In this document: positions 8,131-50,300 of the stretch, piece by piece
Layout: every line of letters begins with the position of its first letter
Position numbering within the stretch: position 1 is the stretch's first letter
Origin: Hypomesus transpacificus
Taxonomy: Eukaryota; Chordata; Actinopteri; Osmeriformes; Osmeridae
Assembly (NCBI RefSeq): GCF_021917145.1
Contig: NC_061072.1
Coordinates: 13,060,742 to 13,124,741, forward strand
Reading direction: 5' to 3'
Length of the DNA: 64,000 nt
The notes under the pieces: model-generated
The model's database searches: none
Seen by the model: the letters and a program-made list of their open reading frames with translations, nothing else
What the model was told of the DNA's origin: nothing
Position numbers and translations under genes: made by a program

Positions 8131-8303
8131 AACCTAACCCCAACCTAACCCTAACCCTAACCCAACCTAACCTAACCCTAACCCTAACCCAACCTAACCC
8201 TAACCCTAACCCTAACCCTAACCCTAACCCTAACCCAAACCCTAACCCTAACCCAACCTAACCTAACCCTAACCCTAACCCTAACCCTAACCTAACCCTA
8301 ACA
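8131..8303. repeat. Interstitial telomeric repeat tract (CCCTAA)n
   Basis: About 170 bases of CCCTAA units, mostly exact, mixed with 5-base CCTAA and CCCAA variants. This is the C-rich strand of the vertebrate telomere repeat, and it sits between FASN and the GPCR. Confidence 0.95.
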
Positions 8304-8639
8304 CTCCCTGATATTTTTCTTGCGTGGGGCTTTTATCCACTCATCTACTTCGTTAGGAGTCGGTCTTGTAATCAGATGAACATGCAGCAGGGCCAATGCA
8401 GCCCCGAGGAGCACCTTCAGGTCTGAGTCTCACTAATGAGACTAATGAGTCACAACACTTAACTCGGGGGGGGGGGGGGATCCTACTGAAAAGTAGGACA
8501 GGCAGGCAGGAACGACGGGGAATAATAACAGCTTCCACATACGGGGCCAACACACCTTCTTCTGTTATTAAGGGACTGAATGCAACACCTGTTTCCTGAC
8601 AGGTACAAGATTATATTTATCTTGTCAAATCCGAAAGCA

Positions 8640-10672: not shown

Positions 10673-13436
10673 ATCAGCAACTGCTCGGTGACAAAGTGTA
10701 GGGATGAGTAATACTGTATCATCAAACAATCCTGATGTATTAGCCAACCTGTGCCTTCTGAAGGTACGCGCCGCCCTGGTGATGAGATGACTTCGAAAGG
10801 CCAGCGTGTTTGTCATCCTAGTTGACATGTGTCCATTACCACCCCTCTCCAGACACACGGCACTCCGTTCTGCATCCTCACCAGAGAGACAGGAATCTGG
10901 GTGATGCCACTGTGGCACTTTGTGGCACCGTTGGTATGGAAACAGTCCAAGAAGACAAATGTGTTCAGCTCTATGACAACGGTGTTCATTTAGCTTTAGA
11001 TAAATGTTGGCACACTGACAGAATTTGCCGAACTGAAAATCTCTGTTTGCCGGGGCCATAATTTCATGGAGGGTGTTGACCAGGAGTCTGCAGCAGATGA
11101 ATGCCACCTGGGCAGGTCACTGGATGTGTCAACCAAGTCAGTGGCGACCAGGAAATGGCTAGTGGTGTTGAATCTAATCAAATCTGAAATGAAATGTGGG
11201 ATTGATTTAATTAAGATGTCGTCAGGAAGCCTTGAGGTGCAGATTAACCTGTTGATGAAAATGAACTCTGGGAAATGAGTGTCTTCCTATGTGTATGTAG
11301 ACTATGCCACACACACTACTCATTGTGTGTGTGTGTGTATGGGGGGCGGGCTGTTGGCATTCTTACTGTAACAACATCACAATTCAACAGAGACTGAGCT
11401 ATGGAGTTAGAAGGTGGAGAGGAGGTTTGAGTTGTGTTGTACAGCAGCAGTACCCTGCAGGACCCTGCAGATGGCTCCTGCTCCAGAGTCCTCCTTGGCT
11501 CTGATGTGCTGCTGCACCAGATGGTGCTGCCTTGGGACCTCTCCCCAGCGTCCATCTGCATTCCACCAAACAGACCTCCCCGCCCCTCCATCCTGGCCTC
11601 CCCAGCCCTTCCTAACCCTCCCTTCCTCAGCTCACCCTGTACAGACCTCCTTTAACTCCCGCCCCCCATTCTGGCGTCCCCAGCCCCAGCCCCAGCCCCA
11701 GCCTCAGCTCCCAGCCCTTCCACACCCCCCTTTCCCTCAGCTCACCCTCTGTAACCCCCCCAGCCCCGTCCTCGCTGGCCTGCCAGCTCCACTCTCCATC
11801 CTCTCTGTGCTACATTGGGTATTAGCTTGATAGGGTAGAAAGGCTTTAATTGGGGGTGAGATCACAGAGTTGGAGGGGGTAATTATCCTACCGGCTATCT
11901 GAGATCACGTGTGTTTGGTGAAAGAGTTTCACGTGTGTTTGGTGGAGAGGAGGCGTGGCGTTGGAGGTTGTGTACATGTTATTGCGTGTGTGCACTAAAA
12001 AGTAAAGTGACTCCAACCTGGTCTACATGGACCCAACATGAGTCACCATTGCAAAATATGATCACAGCTGTAGTTTTCCCAGAAAAGAAGAACCATCGAC
12101 TGTAAATAGTGATCATCCTAGAGCAGTCTCCACTGGTCTCTCCCTCTCTCCTTCACCAAAGTCACGGTTCAAATGACCAGGGGCCACCTAGTTATGCAAT
12201 CTGCACTCTTCTGCCTCAGGTTGTAGTTGTGTGTGTGTGCGTGTGTGTGTGTGTATGGGGGGAGGGGGGATGTTAAGAGGATGTATATGTGTGGAGGAAG
12301 ATATGTGGAGGAAGAAAAGGTATAGGCAGGTGAAACAGAAAGGAGGGGGGTGAGGGGGTGCTGAGAGCAGTAATATCTATGGGGAGTGACCCCTACATCT
12401 CCTATTCTGGTTCACTCCCTCGCACACTCTCTCGCTTATACACACACACACACATACACTGATACGGTCTGGGTGGTTTATAAATAGGGTAATTGTGGTG
12501 TAATTAAATAATTTAAAGAAACAGAAAACCTTTCTAGACTAAGGTGCTCCTTACAGATATATATCCCATCTTTTTAAAGGCTAATGGTTTATAATTGTCA
12601 AGGAGAATGTGAATTAAGGGACTGAATCATATCAGCAGAAATGAACTGATTTCTCAGTTTCTCTCTAAAATCATAGACACATCTCTCAGTCATTTCAGTG
12701 ACATTAGTGCCTACACCTGTATCCATATTATTGTTTAAAGTGGTGGAATATGTTGTGTAGCCCTACACAACTATACTGCTAAACACGTAGATAGGCATCA
12801 AAGCAACTAAGAGATGAATTGGTATAATGACAACCTTGTACAGCAATGTATATTTTATCACAAAACAATTATTTTTGTCTCACAAAAGCAACTTTTGTTT
12901 GTGAGCACCTTTTGATGCCTGAGGACATTGCCAGGTAATTTCAGAGATTATCTAATAGGTTCATTGGTGTGTGTGTATGTGTGTGGGTGGGTGGAAGGGG
13001 GGTACTGATCATGTTGCCCTTTCACTCTCTTCCATACCAAAACGGTGTGACCTCCCACCAGGCCTCACAAGCGCGCTTTGCTGGGCTTAAACAGAACAAA
13101 AAAGTTAGTGCACGAGCGTGGGCAGAAAGAGAGCCCATCCTTTTAGCTAAAGAGAAGATGTGATTGGTCCAGCACGCCCCTTCTCTTGGGCAGTGTGGAA
13201 TACCATTATGAGTGCGACAGACATAGATATTGAGGTCTCAGTTTGACAGATATATGCTTTCTCATATAAAATTCTGGTAAATTATTAGACAAATTCGATG
13301 TACTATTTGTTATCCTCGCAGTGTCTGCCGGTGGGGCACGCCGTCCCCACAGTCCACTCCTTGGGGTTGAGTTCTCACCTGTCTGCGTCAGAGACGGACA
13401 CTTCTCACATTGCCACGATGTGAGAAGCTGCGGGAA

Positions 13437-14738
13437 ATGAATTTAACTAACTTCTACACTAAATTCGGACAATTACTGTCAGCGAATGTGTCACTTGGTG
13501 GACCTCAACATGAAGCGGACAACTGGACTTTCGCAAATACCAATCCCTTTGCGGTGGACGTTTTATTTTCGGGACATGAGCCAGGCACCATCGTTCTGGT
13601 GGTTATGTACACGCTTTCTTTTATTACCGGACTCGGTGGGAACATCATGGCTCTCCTGGTGCTCACGCGCAAGAGGAACCGTTTGGCGGGGGCATCGGCT
13701 ACGCGCCGGCTCCTGGTAAACCTGGCAGTATGTGACATGATGGTCGTGTGCGTGTGTATGCCCGTAAACCTGGGACACCAGGTTTATAACGCCTGGGTGT
13801 TTGGAGACTTCATGTGCCGCGCGGTGCCGTTCGTTCAGGCGGTGTCGGTGTCCGCCAGCGTTCTGAGCCTGGCCGTGATCAGCCTGAACCGGTACTACAG
13901 TGTACATAACCCACTCCACGCAAGGTCCTTCTTTACAGGGCGGCGGATACTCTGCATGATCTTGGTGGTGTGGGCTGTGTCGTCAGTTCTCTGCCTCCCG
14001 CTAGTGTTCATGAACACCACTCGGACCCTGTCTCTCCTAGACGGGGCGCACACCGTCACCGTGTGCGTGGAGAGCTGGGGCAAAGTTAAGCTGCGACAGG
14101 GCTACAACTTCCTCCTCTTCTGTTCGCTCTACGGATTCCCCGTGCTGTTCAACTTGGTCATCTGCCTGCTTACGGCATGGAAGCTATGGGGAACGGACGA
14201 CAAACTCCAAGAACCAAGCAAATATGGTATTGCGCAATCAGTCTCTCGTCTAAAAGTTCGTCAAAGGATCGCCAAGATGGTGTTGTCTTTGGTACTGCTT
14301 TTCACATTGTCCTGGTTACCCCTATACGTGGTGGACATCTGGATAGACTTCAACATGCCGGAGACAATAGGTGGAGAAGAGGGAAATCATTTCGAACACG
14401 AGTGGATCATGCAGAGCAGACCCTTTGCACAGTGGCTTGGTCTGACCAACTCTGCTCTCAACCCACTGTGTTATTGCTTCGTGGGAAACCTGTACCGGTC
14501 AGCCAAGAGGTTCCGGGAGAGCTACAGACAGAAACTGTCGTCAGTGTTCAGTCTGTCGTTACAGCAGTCTACCATGGGCGACTCCGTGCGTAATTTCTCC
14601 CTCTCCCACAGCCGCCCTCCATCAAACAAGCGCGCCACCGAGAAGCGCGCGTCCAAAGATTGCGACAATCTTGGTGACAGGTTGACTAAGAGTCAAAGTT
14701 TGTCTACTGTCACAGTTTGTGAGACAGTTTTCGATTGA
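13437..14738 (+). CDS. Class A (rhodopsin-like) peptide-type G protein-coupled receptor, single exon
   Basis: An intronless 433-residue frame. The ATG at 13437 (MNLTNFYTKF) is taken as start because it precedes a typical N-terminus with N-glycosylation sequons NLT, NVS and NWT. Seven hydrophobic spans are visible: TM1 about 51-76 (GN motif), TM2 92-112 (NLAVCD, with the conserved Asp), TM3 starting after Cys127, TM4 near 162-182, TM5 near 222-248, TM6 with SWLP, and TM7 with NSALNPLCY (the NPxxY motif). Cys127 and the Cys in VTVCVES of loop 2 can form the usual disulphide. The DRY motif is NRY (SLNRYYSV). TM3 text VQAVSVSASVLSL and loop-2 text resemble the orexin/QRFP/NPFF/CCK receptor branch, so a peptide ligand is likely, but I cannot name the receptor. 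The tail (about 75 residues) is Ser/Thr/Lys-rich. Membrane receptor: certain; ligand: unknown. Confidence 0.9.
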   Translation: MNLTNFYTKFGQLLSANVSLGGPQHEADNWTFANTNPFAVDVLFSGHEPGTIVLVVMYTLSFITGLGGNIMALLVLTRKRNRLAGASATRRLLVNLAVCDMMVVCVCMPVNLGHQVYNAWVFGDFMCRAVPFVQAVSVSASVLSLAVISLNRYYSVHNPLHARSFFTGRRILCMILVVWAVSSVLCLPLVFMNTTRTLSLLDGAHTVTVCVESWGKVKLRQGYNFLLFCSLYGFPVLFNLVICLLTAWKLWGTDDKLQEPSKYGIAQSVSRLKVRQRIAKMVLSLVLLFTLSWLPLYVVDIWIDFNMPETIGGEEGNHFEHEWIMQSRPFAQWLGLTNSALNPLCYCFVGNLYRSAKRFRESYRQKLSSVFSLSLQQSTMGDSVRNFSLSHSRPPSNKRATEKRASKDCDNLGDRLTKSQSLSTVTVCETVFD

Positions 14739-15269
14739 CGTGTTGAAAGTATCATGTCGTGACACAATGAATGTCGAAAACAAACCTACTCACTTGCCCA
14801 GATCCGTCTGAGAACATCTTTCAGTACCCTGTTTGGTGTCCTATTTTTTATTTGCGCTTCAGAAAAAAAAGATTTTGGTGGCAGATTGTGCTGGTAAACT
14901 AATTTAGATTTAGCATGGGGTCGCTAACCTTTGGGGTTTGGTGGTCTTAAAAGCTTAGACGTTCTGGGCTAGCTACTTGTTGTTCATATCTCTTGAAATG
15001 TACAAAAGTGAGTACTGTGCATTTTATTAAATGTTGTGGACATGTTCTATTTTACATCACATGATTTATCAATCAATTAAGTAGCCTAGGTCCAGGATTC
15101 TGTGGCGCAACTACAAGCCTACTAAAATAGAATAATTAAAATCCAATCAAATTGTATTCGATATACAGAACACCCAAGGCCCAATTTAAACACTCATACA
15201 ATTTAAACGTGAAAATTGTAAATGTGTCGTAAAACCCTGTGAGATTTCAGAATGGGTTAATTTATTTAA
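14739..15269. other. GPCR 3' flank, no gene seen
   Basis: AT-rich sequence after the GPCR stop, presumably its 3' UTR. No classical AATAAA hexamer stands out before the transposon at 15270. The left TTAA target site is at 15266-15269. Confidence 0.4.
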
Positions 15270-16241
15270 AGGGGCAATTGACTGGGTTTTTTGGGTATTT
15301 CACACTGTTCCTTAAGGTCTCCGAATAGGGTATGTAACATTGGTTGGGTTGAAAATGGCCCGTGTGCTGTTCTATGCCCTCTGACAGATCCTCTGAAATG
15401 TTCCCGGGAAAAAACACTGGCTTTTCTCCTTTTATGGTATGCTCATTAATATTTAGATCAGCTGCAAGCTGATTGGTTGGTTATCAACGAGTGAAGCTGG
15501 GAGCAAAAACACAACACGGCCAACAGCAACACCGAAGTTGGAGACTTGAAATAAAAATGCGCAAAGAAATCTATTGTGTCTACACAACACTGTTTTCAAC
15601 AGATTGACTATATATCATTTGAAATGATAACATTACTTGTTTCCACTTCTGTTGTTGAAGCAAACTGGATTGATTCAGGTGGGTAGAACGTTAGGCTACA
15701 GCTTAGCAACCAAACCATATCCTGATTCTACTCGGCTTCAGTTAGTTAGCTAGGCTAGCTCTAGATATCTTGCTGTAAAATAACATGACAAAGATCTGGA
15801 CAAACATGCATCGTGAATTGTAGATTTTCATTACACAGGTTATTTATTTGAATGAAACACAGTCAGGAACATGAATCAACGTTAGCCCCATTGCCAATAA
15901 ACTAGGCTAAATTATCACACATTCTACCTATGCTCTTGCATTAACTAGCAAGCTAAACTTGTTTACATGCCTACAGTCTAAGTGTTACTAGTAACAGTTA
16001 ATAGCAATGCTAACTATCCTGTATCTAGAACCTGCCTTTCTCCAGTTCTTTCAAATAGATTATCTAGACAGGCGTTAGCAATAAGCCAGACTGCAGTTCG
16101 TTTTCTGGCTATTTTTCGGAAGCTTCCCTTCTAATGCCGACTACAGCTAGTCTAGCTAGAGTCATTTGATGTGTGTAGAAACGTATTTAGCATTCTACCT
16201 GGTATGCTATATACAGGAAACGTTAGCATTGCTAATAACTG

Positions 16242-16540
16242 TTAGCACAACATCATACTGTCCTTAGCTTGCGGTTGCAATGAGCATACGGTTGGAACAG
16301 CACCTCTTTCCAGGTTCAGCTTCCTAGCATATCCTGCTTGAAATTGTCCAAGGTTGTCAAAACTGTCTTGGGTGAAATGTTCAGAGCAAATGAATGATTG
16401 AGTGTCGAACTTCGCCGGGATCTTCTCATAGACAACAGCAGCCATGCCTGTTGAATGTTTGGCTCCTTGGGAAGACTGTGAGTGTTAGCCTTCCCTGTAC
16501 AGCCTGGAACACAGCATTTACGACCGTGGTCCATTTTCAA
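16242..16540 (-). pseudogene. THAP zinc-finger domain fragment, frameshifted
   Basis: Two overlapping reading frames together cover a THAP domain. The first (start near 16540) gives CCVPGCTGK and HSLPKEP followed by a Trp. The second gives SFICSEHFTQDSF and LNLERGAVPTV. These are the C2-x-CH zinc ligands, the conserved Trp and the AVPT box of THAP proteins, in the right order. The switch between frames falls just after the Trp, near 16440-16450, so one frameshift separates the halves and the domain is broken. Reading ends soon after the domain at 16242. The position inside the inverted-repeat element suggests the first exon of its transposase, or a captured THAP exon. Confidence 0.8.
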
Positions 16541-16708
16541 TATCCTTGCTATAATTCAAAACGTTCTTCTTTGTAATTCCTTATAAGTAGCCTACACAGA
16601 GCAGCGCGCAGCTAAACTAGTATCGGAGATAGACGCTACCTCGGGCTGGTCTGGATGTAAATTCTGGGGCGTGACAAAGATACAGACCAGAGCCAATAAG
16701 AGGGCGAT

Positions 16709-16732
16709 CACCGGTCCTACGTAGGACCGGTG
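16709..16732. repeat. Perfect 24-bp palindrome
   Basis: CACCGGTCCTAC followed by its exact inverse, with no spacer. It lies inside the TTAA element, about 170 bp from its right end. Confidence 0.9.
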
Positions 16733-16903
16733 GCTTTGTTGAAAAGCTAGCGTTTTACAGCCAAATTTTTGCTTTTTGAGATTTGAATAGGAAAGAGGTG
16801 TCAATGGACTTTGATATTCACGGTATGTTCAGTTTACCCTCCGAACTGTCGTTTTTCAACAATGACAAGGTAAAATCGGTTTTGCAGTCAATTGCCCCTT
16901 TAA

Positions 16904-19100
16904 ATATCGAAAATATCAGTAGCCGTGTAATTGACTAAATGTACTAACCCTGTACTTTTCAGCCTGATTTTCCACATTTGTGGCAGTTAGTGTAGATGTA
17001 TTTTGCGGGAAACCATCACCGTGCAGGATGTGTCTTGGCATACCGCTTCTTTGGTAGCCTACGATCCGAGGTGATTAACTCTGTCGGTGAGAACGGGGCC
17101 CACTGGCAGCTGCAGCTGGGACAGAAAACTTGATATCCTGATTAAGTATTACTGCTGATGCGGCCTGGTCCATGATCAGTGTTTGCTTGCTGCGGTGCAC
17201 CGATCCAACGCTGGCGTACAATCGGCGGCTGGCACAAAAATCTAAATCCTGCCATCTGCACTGAAAGGGGATTGATCAACACTGGGAAGGGAGGACATAA
17301 TATGAGATGGAGAGGAGCATACGTTAATAGGCACTACAAACATCAATCAAAACTTCATTTACCTCTGCTAGTGTATATATCTCACGCTCTGTAGTGGTAC
17401 CATCAGAGAGGGGGCAAACCCATTGACATGCATGATATACCTACAGCCTTCCCCAGAGCCTCGAGACAACATAATTATAGACAAGGCGCTAGACTGACCA
17501 AACCAATTGCTGGCAAAAGGCGCTGCCCTTGATGTAGCTACTCATTAAATACTGCAAAGGTCACAGTCCCAGAGGAAAGGCCCTGAGCTGGTTCTTAATG
17601 TTTAAAATGACTGGGAGTGTCATTGTCTGGGCAGAGAGAAATTGAGATAGAGCGAGAGCAAGATAGAAAAGAGAGACGAGAGAGTCAGAGGGAAAAGAGA
17701 GTCAGAGAGAAAAGAGAGTCAGAGAGAAAAGAGATGAGAGTCAGAGAGGGATAAAAGATAGCTGACTACTTACAGAAGAGAGAGAGGTTTAGGAGAGATG
17801 ATGGGAGGAAGAAGGAAGAGGGTGCACATTGAAAAGGCGTGTTCATCTGTCTGTCTTGTTGCTATGGCTCTGTTATCTCTCTTCCCTCTCCTCTCCCACT
17901 CTCATAGCTTTGCTGGTATAATTATTGTTAATTGGCAGTAATAGAGTGTGACAGGGAGATTGCACAAAGAGGGGGAACTACAGCGGGGGACAGAGACCGA
18001 TCAAGTGTCGATGTTTCTTTAGATCAGACGCCCGTAGTGACTTGACCACAGCACAAAAGACTCCCTGGTTCAGTAGGTGTAATACTGGATGTTATCCATC
18101 ATCTGGTCAGGCCAACCATCTAAACCAGTGAGCCACAAAACAAGGAAATGCTCATAAGATGTAGGCTACCCCACAATAGTCCACAAGGAAAGTATTTCAA
18201 TCGGTAGATTATTTATTTGGATTTAATATTGGTCAGTGTCTATGTGTGTGTGTGAAGCCTGACAAGCAGGACCTGCCTCATTACCTTGGTGTCTACATTC
18301 CTCTCACACTCTACCCACTCAGACCTGACCAGTCGGCAGAGGAGGCCAAAGATGTCTGGCATCAGAAAAGCTATTTATGCAGACTCACAAAGACCACACT
18401 CTCATATTCACAAACCCGCAGTGCATGTGAACTTTGATCACAATGACACATTAAAAATTAAAAGTCACAAAGTCTGGCTATAGTCTGGCTCTAGAGGGCT
18501 CCATGCAGTCTTTGATAGATAGTGAGTGGACTAAACAGCCAAACCTTCTGTCGAGCAACACGCATGCAACAGTGGTCTGAAAACCTACATTCAACCGGTA
18601 AAATGTCTGCACAACCCAGAATATTCACGATTATTTTCCAGGCTTCATCCAAGAAATGCATACCACCCAGATATGCGTACACTGAAATGAAGCGCCCGGT
18701 TTGGGTCAACGTTGTGCCAAATTAAGGGATTATGGGATTTCACCTGTCTTCCAATGTCTCTGTTTTCCTCTTCAGATCCTCTACGTTTTTGTCTCCATTA
18801 ATCATCAGTTACCTGCTAATCTGATCATAACATCAATCAAGGAACACGAGGCGTTTCCTAGGGACAAGAGATAGACAGGGCTGAATCCGTACAGGCCTGG
18901 ATTAGAGCAATTCACAACAGGTAGGCGAAGTTAGGCTTTTATAGGTACTGACCTTTATTTAAACATAACACACGTTAGAACTGTAAGATGTAATAACTCA
19001 ATCGTAATAAATACTAAATAAATAAAATGTGGAAAAAACACGCGGCTACACACCGTATGAAGGCCAGTGTAGGCTATTGTCTACTAGGCCTATAGGCAAT
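16904..19100. other. Intergenic, no gene recognised
   Basis: Mixed-composition sequence with a purine-rich AGAGAGAAAAGAGAGTCAG-type tract near 17640-17760. Frames here are short and show no domain. Nothing further can be supported. Confidence 0.5.
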
Positions 19101-20938: not shown

Positions 20939-28443
<7,505 letters not shown>

Positions 28444-30497: not shown

Positions 30498-33400
30498 ATG
30501 CACCTTGCTTCAGTGGGCTCCAGCAAGCTGTGCTTTCTGTTGTCACTGGCATTCTGCGGCTTCCTGCTGCTTCTCATCCCAGCCTTTCAGCCCACTCCTC
30601 ACCAGGTGGACCTGCCCCCGCCTCGTCCTCACCCCAGGCCTGCCCGTGTGGGCAAACGGCCTGCCAACACCCCCCGCAATCCTGGAGGTCTGGTAGTCCC
30701 TCTCCAGGAAGAAGGGCTGGCCCTTGGGAATAATGTGAGCTCTGTGGGGCAGGGAAGACCCAGAGACACTCAAACCAACAGGGAGGGTGGCCATGCACCT
30801 ATAACAGGGCAAAGGGATCTCCCGAACACAAGGAGGGGGACAGTCTCACATAGAGGCCCAGCGGAGGGCTCCCTACCTGGGGTGAGGGGAGTAGTTTTCA
30901 GGTCTAGGGAACCTCTGGAGTCGAAGGACATCTTCCTGGCAGTGAAGACCACCAGGAAGTACCATAAATCCCGCCTGGAGCTGCTGCTGCAGACCTGGGT
31001 GTCCAGGGCCCGAGAACAGGTAGGAGCACAAGGCCTTGTGAGAGCAGGTAGTAGTAGTAGTTCCCATAGCTGGTGTAGTCCATGTTTGTGTGATTGAACA
31101 AACTCCTGTCTTATCCAAAACAGTTCAGTGCTCACAAACACACAGTAAGGAACCAACACACATCAAATCAGGCCTGTTAAAATACTAACAATCTCTGTTT
31201 GTTGCTGTTTTGTTTGTGTACCAGAACTGGGTGTTTCCCCAGGCTCTTCTCCACTCCAAATTCCAACGTTAATATGTAACCAGAAACTCATATCTTATAT
31301 GACTGATTTATAGATTGATCTCTACTCCTCTCTCCCTATCTACCCCTCCAGCTCCACTCCCCCTCTCCCGTTTCCTCATTACCCCTAGCCCAGTATCCTC
31401 ATTAACCCTAGCCCAGTGTCCTCATTACCCCTAACCCAGGGTCTTCATTAACCCTAGCCCAGTATCCTCATTACCCCTAGCCCAGTGTCTTCATTAACCC
31501 TAGCCCAGTGTCTTCATTAACCCTAGCCCAGTATCCTCATTAACCCTAGCCCAGTGTCTTCATTAACCCTAGCCCAGTATCCTCATTAACCCTAGCCCAG
31601 TGTCTTCATTAACCCTAGCCCAGTATCCTCATTAACCCTAGACCAGTGTCCTCATGCACATCTCCCCCTCATCTAATCAGTCCATGGGGCTGATTACCAG
31701 GTTGATTAATGTGTAGTACTTGGTTGTATGCTTTGCCATGCTGGAGAACATTATGTCCTCTCTTGTGCTTAGATAGATAGGACTACAGCCTGAGTATTAG
31801 ACAGACTTGCAGGTTGTGTGTGTGTGTGTGTGCGCGTTAGTGTGTGGTTGGTGCTGGTTCCTCTGTGTTCAGGGACATGAGGTTGCTATATGACTGTGTT
31901 TAACTTGGAGGTTAACTGGAAAGTCATGGCAGCTGCTCTACATGTTCCCGGGTATGTGGTTGGTAGGGAAGTGCGTGTGCGTGCGTGTGTGTGAGCAAGC
32001 AGGCCCCTGGAGGAAGTTCCTCAGCAACCTGAGACTGAGACACATGTGTGCTGGAACACTGGGGTGTTTGCTCTCCCTCGCTGCCAGATTCTGGAATCTC
32101 CGCCCCCCCCCCCCCCCTCCCACTGCCGTGTACCCTCCACCCCGAACCCCCACCCTGTAGATGGCTTTTAGATGAATATACCAGGAATCTGGTAGGTGGG
32201 GGAGAGCAGAGGAATGGGAAGGGTAGAGCCTAACAGGGAAGAGAAAGGGGTTTACTATTAGAGGGATGGGCCTGGGGGGGGGGGGGGGGGGGGGGTGCAG
32301 AATGGGAGGGGGCTGGATGGAAGGAAAGGGGGGTGGATGGGAGACGGTGGGAGCCAGAGGGAAATGGGTGGGGGAGCCGACAGGCAAACAGAGAGGCTCG
32401 CTAGGGGACTAGGGGTGGCTGGAAGCCACAAGAGTACAGACTGGAGCTGGGGCATGCACAATGGAGAGGAGGAGAGGGTGTCGGGCCCAATAGTCTGGAG
32501 AAATCATGCCGTCTTTGTGGAATATTGTGTTCCAGGGTATAAGCCTAAATCGGTGTGTTTTGTTAACCCGGCTTGCTCACAGTCCTAGAACAGCGGCTAA
32601 TACAAGATTAGGATAGGAGAAGACTGAGACTATGTACAGCTACACAAATAACCAACCATATGAGGTCATGGGGGTGACCGTTCTCCACGCGATGACATCG
32701 ACACGCAGTATGTGACATAGTTACCCTCCATGCTATGATGCCTTTGGAAAAACCACTAGTCTGCCCCTGCTGCGGCGTCTGGGCTCCTGTGGTGACATCA
32801 CACACGGTGGACCACCGTCGTACCTCTAACCAACTCCATTTGGGTTTATTTACAAAGATTCTACGAGATCCCCCAGGCGAAGGCAGAGTTAACGCCGTAA
32901 CACCCGAGATATCCTGTACACTGTGTGAGGTATACTGTACTAGACAGGTAGAACATACACATGGTGCCTCACCCTAGAGGAGGGTGTGACCACTAAACCT
33001 GAGACTCTTAACCTCTCAGTGGTGGCACGAGGTCAGCCAGGTCCAGCTGGGTCGGCGGCCATCTTGGCAAGCATCTGTCAACAAAAAGAGAGAGTATTTT
33101 CACAGATCTTAATAGATGCTGTCTCATCAGTTGTTCATCTGGTTGGCTCTCCAGATGGAGGGGACATCAGGATCATTGATGACAGGTTTTGAGATGTGCA
33201 ATATGGGTTCCAGGTCTTTAGACCTCTCTGTGCTCTGAGTGGTTAACAGCAGACCTCCTGGTGTTATACAGCCCTCTTAAATCCCCAAACATCTGTCTAT
33301 CTTTACCAAGGACTTAGCTCTAGGCAGACTCTACTCTACCATGTTCTACTCTTCTACTCCAGCCACTCATGGAAGGGAAGTTTCTCTAAATAATGGAACC

Positions 33401-47352: not shown

Positions 47353-50300
47353 AGGGTGAGACAGTATTGTCTTGAATGAATGGTGTAGTACATTGGAAAA
47401 TATCTCTCACACACACACACACAGAATATGTTCACTTCACCAGGAGTGCATGGCCTACCTCCTCCAGGCGGATTTGGGAGCGCACCTTCCCCATTTCCTC
47501 ATCTGCTTGGGCCCTCTCAGTCACACACGCTGCCTTGGCCCTGCTCAGCTCCTGTACGGGAGCATACACACACACACACAGAAACACACACACATACATA
47601 TACAAAAGTTAATGTAAATACAAGCTGTCCCGCCAACATTAGGGACGTTTGCGTTCGTGTGTGCATGCGCATGGGCTTATGAACCTCCTCCAGGTGAATG
47701 CGCTGTCCCTCCAGTTTGAGGATCCTCTCCTGCAGGCCTCTCTCACTCTCCTCCAGGTGACGATTCACATGGTCCACCTGGTCACACGAACACAATCCCA
47801 CAAGTAGTGAGACTTGCCACTTTTCACTCATCATTAAGGGGACCTTCTCAGCATGTGTCTACCTCTTTCTGCCGTAGGCCGTCTATGTCCTCCACAGCCT
47901 GCTTGGACCTCTTTCTCTCTAGGTCCAGACGCTCTGGGGGAGGAACAGACGGCAAGTGAGTTCGAGAGAGACGTAGAGAGAGGGAAAAAGAGAGAGGCAG
48001 GCAGAGTGAATGTGTTTGTGTGTGTTTGCGCGTGTGTGTGAGAGGGCGTTACCTTCTGCCTGCGCGAGCCTCAGCTTCAGCTCTGCTGTGCTGTTGGTGA
48101 GCTCCTGCTTCAGCTCAAAGATCACATCCTGCTGGGTCTTACACCTCCGCTCCATCTCATCCACCTGGCGCACACACACACACACAGACACACGCACACA
48201 CAAATACACTTCAGAACTTCATTTTTTTAAGGCTTGACAAATGATGCTGACATCATTTGTCACACACATTTAAGATAATAATAATAATAATTCGTATTTT
48301 TTATAGCGCTTTTCTAATACTCAAAGTCGCTTTACATGTATGAGTACAAGCAAAACAAGACAAAAGTAAAATATGAAGACAAAGGATTGAACAAAACAGA
48401 CAAACATAATATTATAAAGAAAACTAGCATATAAATCTAGTAGTGGAGGGGATGGAGCAGGGGATGTTCAGGTGAAGGCGAGGTTGAAGAGGTGAGTTTT
48501 GAGGGATTGTTTAAATAGTGCTATACTGGGAGCCAGACGGATAGGGAGAGGGAGGTCATTCCAGAGGGAGGGTGCAGCAGCCGATATGCCCACTTTGATA
48601 CACAAATCCCACCTTGTTCTTGAGCTGCAGGCTGGTCTCTGACATGTTGTTCATCTCTCTGAGTAGCTTCCCCTCCCTCAGCACGCTGTCCTGTGACACA
48701 CACACACCCTGTTATACACCAGTCAATGACTTCCATTCCCTCTTCTCTCTCTGTGGTCCCTCCCTCCCTCCTTACCTCCTGCTCCTTCTTTCTCTCCCTG
48801 CTCTGTCGGTTCCTCTGTTCGTCCTTCTCACTCTTCAGACGCCCCAGCAGCTCCTGCAGGTTGTGGTTCTTCTGCTCCGACAGAGTCAATGCCGCCTCTG
48901 TCATCTGCAGCCTGCGCGCACACACACACACAACGGTTAGTCAGTCTGTGCGTGAGTTAGTGAGGAGGACTCCTAAAATGAATTTGAAAAGGCAGGTCTA
49001 CTTCCTATTACAATAGTAATACTAAATGTGTAAGTGTCCTCTGTAACATTGAGCCCACCATAAGTGGGTCACCGGGGTCCATAGAGTCCCCTCCTCTCTG
49101 CTGCTCTACCTGAGAATGTAGTTAATAATAGTGGCAGACCCAGGACAGGATACAAATGAGATACCTAATATTCTTATACTATTAAAAAAACGTTGAGTGT
49201 TGGGAGGTGTGTAGAACAGAATGCAGAGGGTCTTCACAGAGCAGCTTTGGGAGGCAGAAGGGTGGGGGTGAAGGTGGGGGTGGAGGTGGTGGGTGAAAGG
49301 GGGGGGTGGGGGTGGTGGGTGGAGGTGGGGGTGGGGGTGGTGGGTGGAGGTGGTGGGTGGAGGTGGTGGGTGAAGGTGGGGGTGAAGGTGGGGGTGAAGG
49401 TGGTGGGTGAAGGTGGTGGGTGAAGGTGGGGGTGAAGGTGGTGGGTGGAGGTGGTGAGGCCTGACACAGACGAGCTGGCTGCTTACTTGGCGGTGAGAGA
49501 GTTAACGACCGACTTCCTGTCATTCAGGGCTTCCTGTAGCTGGCCCACATGGATGGAGGTGGACCTGTAGGAGGGTAGGATGGAGGAGGGCACATGGCAA
49601 AAGTTACAGAGACAGACTGGCTTCAGTAGGCCAGACTGCCTGTGTCTCCCCCGATCCAGTTAGACATCCAGTCCTCCAAGCCCCCCACCCAGACCCAGTT
49701 AGACATCCAGTCCTCCAAGCCCTCCGCCCAGACCCAGTTAGACATCCAATCCTCCAAGCCCCCCGCCCAGACCCAGTTAGACATCCAGTCCTCCAAGCCC
49801 CCCACCCAGACCCAGTTAGACATCCAGTCCTCCAAGCCCCCCACCCAGACCCAGTTAGACATCCAGTCCTCCAAGCCCCCCACCCAGACCCAGTTAGACA
49901 TCCAGTCCTCCAAGCCCCCCGCCCAGACCCAGTTAGACATCCAGTCCTCCAAGCCCCCCACCCATACCCAGTTAGACATCCAGTCCTCCAAGCCCCCCAC
50001 CCAGACCCAGTTAGACATCCACTCACGCTGACCTGCTGCTGCGGCCCATCTCATCCCTCTGCTTGTCGATGGTCTCCATGAGATTCAGGAACTACAGTGA
50101 CATCAGCACTCAGTTAGTATTTCAAACAGCAACTGTAAGACCAGTGTGGTTTGTAAACCAGTTTACCTGCCGACCCTTCTCCTCCTTCAGGATCTGGATT
50201 TCCTTGCTGAGGACCTGGGTTCTGCTACGGCTCTCTCTCAGAGTGGACTGTCTGTCTGAGTTGTGCTCCATGGCCTGTTCTGGAGGGCGGAGACAGGGGG

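Follow-up and report, generated by a model that had tools for sequence, protein, structure and literature searches.

The 64,000 nucleotides of Hypomesus transpacificus DNA analysed here (the window) contain a 1630-bp unit (Table 1) that is very probably a young nonautonomous DNA transposon of the Kolobok superfamily with T2-type ends, one that would have arisen by internal deletion and been mobilised by a transposase supplied from another locus. The type of element is an ordinary one, of which the window holds a well-preserved copy. The evidence comes from its ends and target site, from its many close copies in the host genome, and from a THAP-coding stretch whose frame is broken in most copies of the family.

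Results

Structure of the element

The two ends of the unit carry exact inverted repeats, and an alignment of the ends of the window copy stops after 15 bp. The inverted arms of this unit come to 22 nt in total (15263-15284 and 16885-16906), longer than the repeats since the insertion target is itself a palindrome (TATTTAAATA). When the 19-mer consisting of TTAA plus the end was sought in the window with up to 3 mismatches, there were 2 matches relative to 0.03 expected from shuffled sequences. Among the 5943 pairs of TTAA lying 100-6000 bp apart in the window, this was the sole pair with more than 7 matching inverted bases, and the runner-up had 7. The inverted match of the ends is therefore not due to chance, and the exact inverted ends and exact TTAA duplications claimed in a preliminary description of this DNA were confirmed at coordinates 15266-16903.

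Table 1. Features of the element and its target site (positions in the window)
Feature	Position	Strand	Remarks
Left target-site copy, TTAA	15266..15269		TTAA there in 36/36 distinct full-length insertions
Element, very probably Kolobok-type nonautonomous, 1630 bp	15270..16899		
Left terminal inverted repeat, AGGGGCAATTGACTG, 15 bp	15270..15284	+	
Internal stretch	15992..16244		23-nt, 96% complementary inverted repeats at its ends
Open frame, C-terminal half of THAP (C-x2-H, AVPTV)	16242..16484	-	PF05485 profile 48-86, 25.9 bits
Open frame, N-terminal half of THAP (C-x3-C, P, W)	16316..16555	-	PF05485 profile 1-45, 22.1 bits
Perfect palindrome, CACCGGTCCTACGTAGGACCGGTG, 24 bp	16709..16732		5' flank of THAP frame
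Right terminal inverted repeat, exact reverse complement of AGGGGCAATTGACTG	16885..16899	-	
Right target-site copy, TTAA	16900..16903		TTAA there in 34/36 distinct full-length insertions

Several other features of the window were recorded. A gene for a rhodopsin-type receptor lies on the plus strand at 13371-14738 in one open frame (Pfam 7tm_1, 160.6 bits) and ends about 530 bp before the element; the best solved sequences for it were orexin and neuropeptide FF receptors. There are minisatellite arrays at 24216-24755 (30-bp units), 24686-25266 (38 bp), 31321-31711 (23 bp), and 49571-50102 (39 bp), and an interstitial array of telomere-like CCCTAA repeats at 8133-8319.

The family in the host genome

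A search of the host genome, an assembly of 376 contigs totalling 437 Mb, gave at least 39 full-length matches to the unit at 94-100% identity; the 72 matches listed came from the best 40 of 1915 candidates scored, and the count is thus a lower bound. Short pieces made up the rest of the list, together with two interrupted copies, namely the outer copy on contig C369 and a copy on C367. The 19-bp pattern of TTAA plus the end, with at most 1 mismatch, occurred at 910 places in the genome (461 forward, 449 reverse), and the reversed control pattern occurred at none in either direction. Among the copies fetched (L001-L040), L028, L029, L031, and L033 lie on four contigs but share their flanks as printed and differ by 0-0.18%; they were counted as a single insertion. 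Either duplication of the surroundings spread this insertion, or one locus was assembled more than once.

On this count, which leaves out the two interrupted copies, TTAA was present on both sides of 34 of the 36 distinct full-length insertions and on the left side of all of them; the right target copy had changed in the other two, to TCAA in L018 and to TTTA in L037. The flanks of the 36 insertions showed no preference beyond TTAA other than a mild excess of A+T (62% in the 16 bp on either side). An empty site was provided by L010 (C369:176414-179681), where one copy is nested in an internal TTAA of another. The outer copy reads CTGTTCC-TTAA-copy-TTAA-GGTCTCC, where the window unit shows just one TTAA, so that this nested insertion directly shows duplication of the four target bases.

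Positions 105-691 of L045 hold a derivative of 587 bp that shares the ends of the unit but has lost its middle, retaining unit positions 1-425 and 1479-1630. A single TTAA separates it from a full copy alongside; the family therefore also makes smaller elements. Another unit copy, at 2294-3950 of L040, is interrupted by an insert starting CAGTGCCCTCCAAAAGTATT, which we take to look like a Tc1-type end.

The 40 copies aligned diverge from one another by 1.9% on average. The window copy diverged by 0.49% from its nearest relatives and had 1 private substitution; the median was 5 for a set of 36 copies that leaves out L010n and three shared-flank duplicates. Given this low divergence and the single private substitution, the window insertion is recent. 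The fairly recent mobilisation suggested in the preliminary description thus found support, both in that substitution and in the many near-identical, TTAA-flanked copies recovered by the genome search. Those copies also answer one refuting condition set in that description, a lack of further copies sharing the ends, which did not arise.

The THAP-coding stretch

The THAP reading of the window copy starts with an ATG at 16534, which is base 366 counted from the right end, and it falls into two halves in two frames. Relative to the Pfam cut-off for PF05485 of 23.9 bits, the C-terminal half lies above and the N-terminal half just below. The two PF05485 matches adjoin to within one base near 16406, which points to a frameshift and not to an intron; the halves are one domain, split by a change of frame near that position. 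Between them they contain the features of the THAP family (C2CH, P-W-F, and an AVPTIF-like box), single residues being read by eye, with AVPTV as the box in place of AVPTIF, and AVSTV in L013 and L014. A sequence search of the PDB returned weak matches to THAP1, THAP2, and THAP11 and nothing else. No DDE catalytic domain was found in the unit, whose longest open stretch in any frame is 80 aa, and in a Pfam search with four frames of the unit the two THAP halves alone were matched.

To describe the state of the domain across the family we used the 55 copies in L001-L060 that have the whole THAP stretch, shared-flank duplicates kept in. Markers for the N-terminal half without the C-terminal half in the open frame that begins at the start codon were found in 39 copies, the reverse in 4, and neither in 9; only 3 (L013, L014, and L045) had both halves in one open frame, of 93-96 aa. 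By this marker test the frame is broken, with one half or both missing, in 52 of the 55 copies; the classes rest on short marker strings, and a point change can move a copy from one to another, as in L044. The three intact frames clear the PF05485 cut-off, with scores of 46.7, 47.0, and 48.4 bits, and L015, in which the N-terminal half is shifted, still scored 32.7 bits. The frameshift is inherited within the family and, set beside the relatives described below, looks like a mark of this young family.

We then compared variation in the THAP stretch with that in 1630 equally long windows of the unit. The stretch had 51 variable states, and 870 of the 1630 windows were as low or lower. Shared variants taken alone were somewhat few (239 of 1630), and singletons were not (1225 of 1630), so that in this comparison there was no clear sign of selection on the stretch. 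With most of the copies read carrying it in broken form, and with no clear conservation, the stretch is probably not needed, and was probably kept through its closeness to the right end.

These results bear on a different reading, in which the element regulates itself: a THAP-only protein from some copies would bind the ends and restrain the transposase. KP, which keeps the THAP start of the P transposase, would be the model. The three intact frames and the score of L015 are what this reading would call for, and the KP repressor of P elements is a precedent, as described in the consulted part of PMC7776569. Against it stand the 52 copies that lack one half or both and the variation of the THAP stretch, which is ordinary for the unit, and we consider self-regulation improbable. 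We regard as similarly doubtful the broader proposal that the family supplies THAP-only genes, with a minority of copies, reopened by different indels, making end-binding dampeners of 93-96 aa and occasionally host exons. The preliminary description had reported a broken THAP zinc finger on the minus strand and had held that only the DNA-binding part of a transposase was left; the former was borne out as two adjoining PF05485 parts in two frames, and the latter agrees with a unit that has no room for the catalytic part. Its further suggestion of a mobile THAP carrier, acting as a source of host exons or as a repressor, is unsupported, the frame being broken in nearly all copies by the marker test and the stretch varying like the rest of the unit.

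Related sequences

A Pfam search for THAP domains in the host genome gave 150 matches, the best 150 of 1139 candidates scored. Five of these (L061-L065), taken with 700 bp upstream, were picked because they covered the domain without a stop; all five read THAP in one frame, which follows from the choice of sample and is no measure of frequency. Relatives with a whole THAP do exist, L061 and L064 being whole by Pfam. Both of these have the sibling ends TTAA-AGGGGCGATTGATTG, and their identity to the right 613 bp of the unit is 83.7% for L061 and 94.1% for L064. The sibling end was not seen within 700 bp upstream in L062, L063, or L065, which match shorter parts of the unit at 90.6-95.3%.

A second sample, L041-L060, comprised 20 longer or single-end cases chosen among 100 ends listed of the 910. 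Seven were units broken by inserts (L041-L044, L048, L051, L054), seven were whole or nearly whole units (L045-L047, L056-L058, L060), and six were partial (L049, L050, L052, L053, L055, L059). The unit in L060 is an older relative, 71-82% identical by segment, with no match to unit positions 666-1027; a THAP-like sequence can be read there in one frame, interrupted by two stops, and its two pieces are weak in Pfam (none; 13.3 bits). None of these 20 loci yielded a full-length relative that has a DDE domain. Ten larger frames from the six partial loci gave no transposase match in Pfam, which may lack a model for the Kolobok DDE domain; they yielded zinc fingers in L055, a zinc knuckle in L049, and an ALKBH8_N match in L052, and the other seven had no match. 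The partial loci could be ends of longer elements.

Two further features of the unit were followed through these sequences. The palindrome listed in Table 1 is the longest in the window, the next being 16 bp, and it is perfect over at least 24 bp in 32 of 40 copies. An imperfect version occupies the site in the oldest copy (L010n) and in L061, L062, and L064, and a different perfect palindrome, of 16 bp, occupies it in L063 (about 491-506). A conserved binding site was considered and rejected, since the letters differ in L010n and L061-L064 and are thus not conserved; the palindromic state may have arisen separately in two lineages, by repeated correction of an imperfect palindrome. In L062 a further palindrome, of 24 bp, lies shortly beyond the part that matches the unit. 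The second feature is the internal stretch, the region of which (15970-16270) folds better than all 100 shuffles (z-score -4.58) and has no match in the older relative in L060. As to whether 15992-16244 is a nested second element, no copy of it outside the family was found in the sequences examined, the one exception being a 27-bp match of its surroundings beside the copy in L053.

Discussion

TTAA duplication, RR...YY ends, and a THAP domain are given as marks of Kolobok elements in the consulted parts of PMC9587614 and PMC6004289, the latter also giving TTAA followed by AGGRR as the mark of T2-MITEs. The unit has termini AGGGG...CCCCT, of the form 5'-RR...YY-3', its left end reads TTAA plus AGGGG, and its 4-bp TTAA target duplication is documented by the 34 of 36 insertions and by the empty site in L010. 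With the THAP halves, these features give good support to the Kolobok class proposed in the preliminary description, the source transposase being presumed. The family was not seen in the literature searched, which consisted of listings and the beginnings of abstracts.

TTAA is also the target of piggyBac, and its duplication would fit an element of that type as well. We think this very unlikely, however, as the unit carries a THAP domain and piggyBac elements are not known to have one. A piggyBac element would moreover be expected to have ends other than RR...YY at its TTAA target; in the part of PMC9587614 consulted, RR...YY ends separate Kolobok from piggyBac, and those of the unit are of the RR...YY form. 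A P-element or THAP9-type element, suggested by a coding part that begins with THAP, is scarcely credible with the 4-bp TTAA on both sides of 34 of 36 insertions in place of an 8-bp target duplication, zebrafish P-like elements having 13-bp repeats and 8-bp duplications in the portion of PMC7776569 available.

Among known systems the Xenopus T2-MITE families, as portrayed in the sections of PMC6004289 consulted, resemble this one in TTAA target, AGGRR ends, many very similar copies, and recent activity; in contrast to them, the present unit is 1630 bp long, has a THAP-coding stretch, and comes from a fish, and the likeness of the ends is one of printed sequences. The full-length Xenopus element A5 has ends AGGGGAACTATCATGA and AGGGGATCTATCATGA, of which the first five bases are common to the unit (same sections). 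Full-length Kolobok elements (Xenopus XKol; Danio Kolobok-1_DR; PMC6004289, in part) share TTAA, ends beginning AG, and THAP, whereas the window unit has no DDE or H2CH part. KP and internally deleted P elements, in the excerpt of PMC7776569, are likewise nonautonomous and keep part of the transposase gene; unlike the present family with its TTAA and its THAP frame broken in 52 of 55 copies, P-like elements have 8-bp duplications.

We propose that the Kolobok-type unit derives from a transposase-coding element by an internal deletion that would have removed the catalytic part but spared the two ends and the beginning of the transposase gene, which codes for THAP. A transposase from another locus, presumably with a DDE domain and still working, would recognise the ends, excise the unit, and insert it at TTAA, duplicating the four bases.

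The result is a clean, very young nonautonomous fish family of Kolobok type, with near-identical copies and an exact TTAA empty site, in which an inherited broken THAP coexists with relatives whose THAP is whole. Its history can be read as deletion, then frameshift, then amplification, with some frames reopened. If a live transposase remains in the genome, the family might be useful for studying TTAA-directed transposition outside piggyBac.
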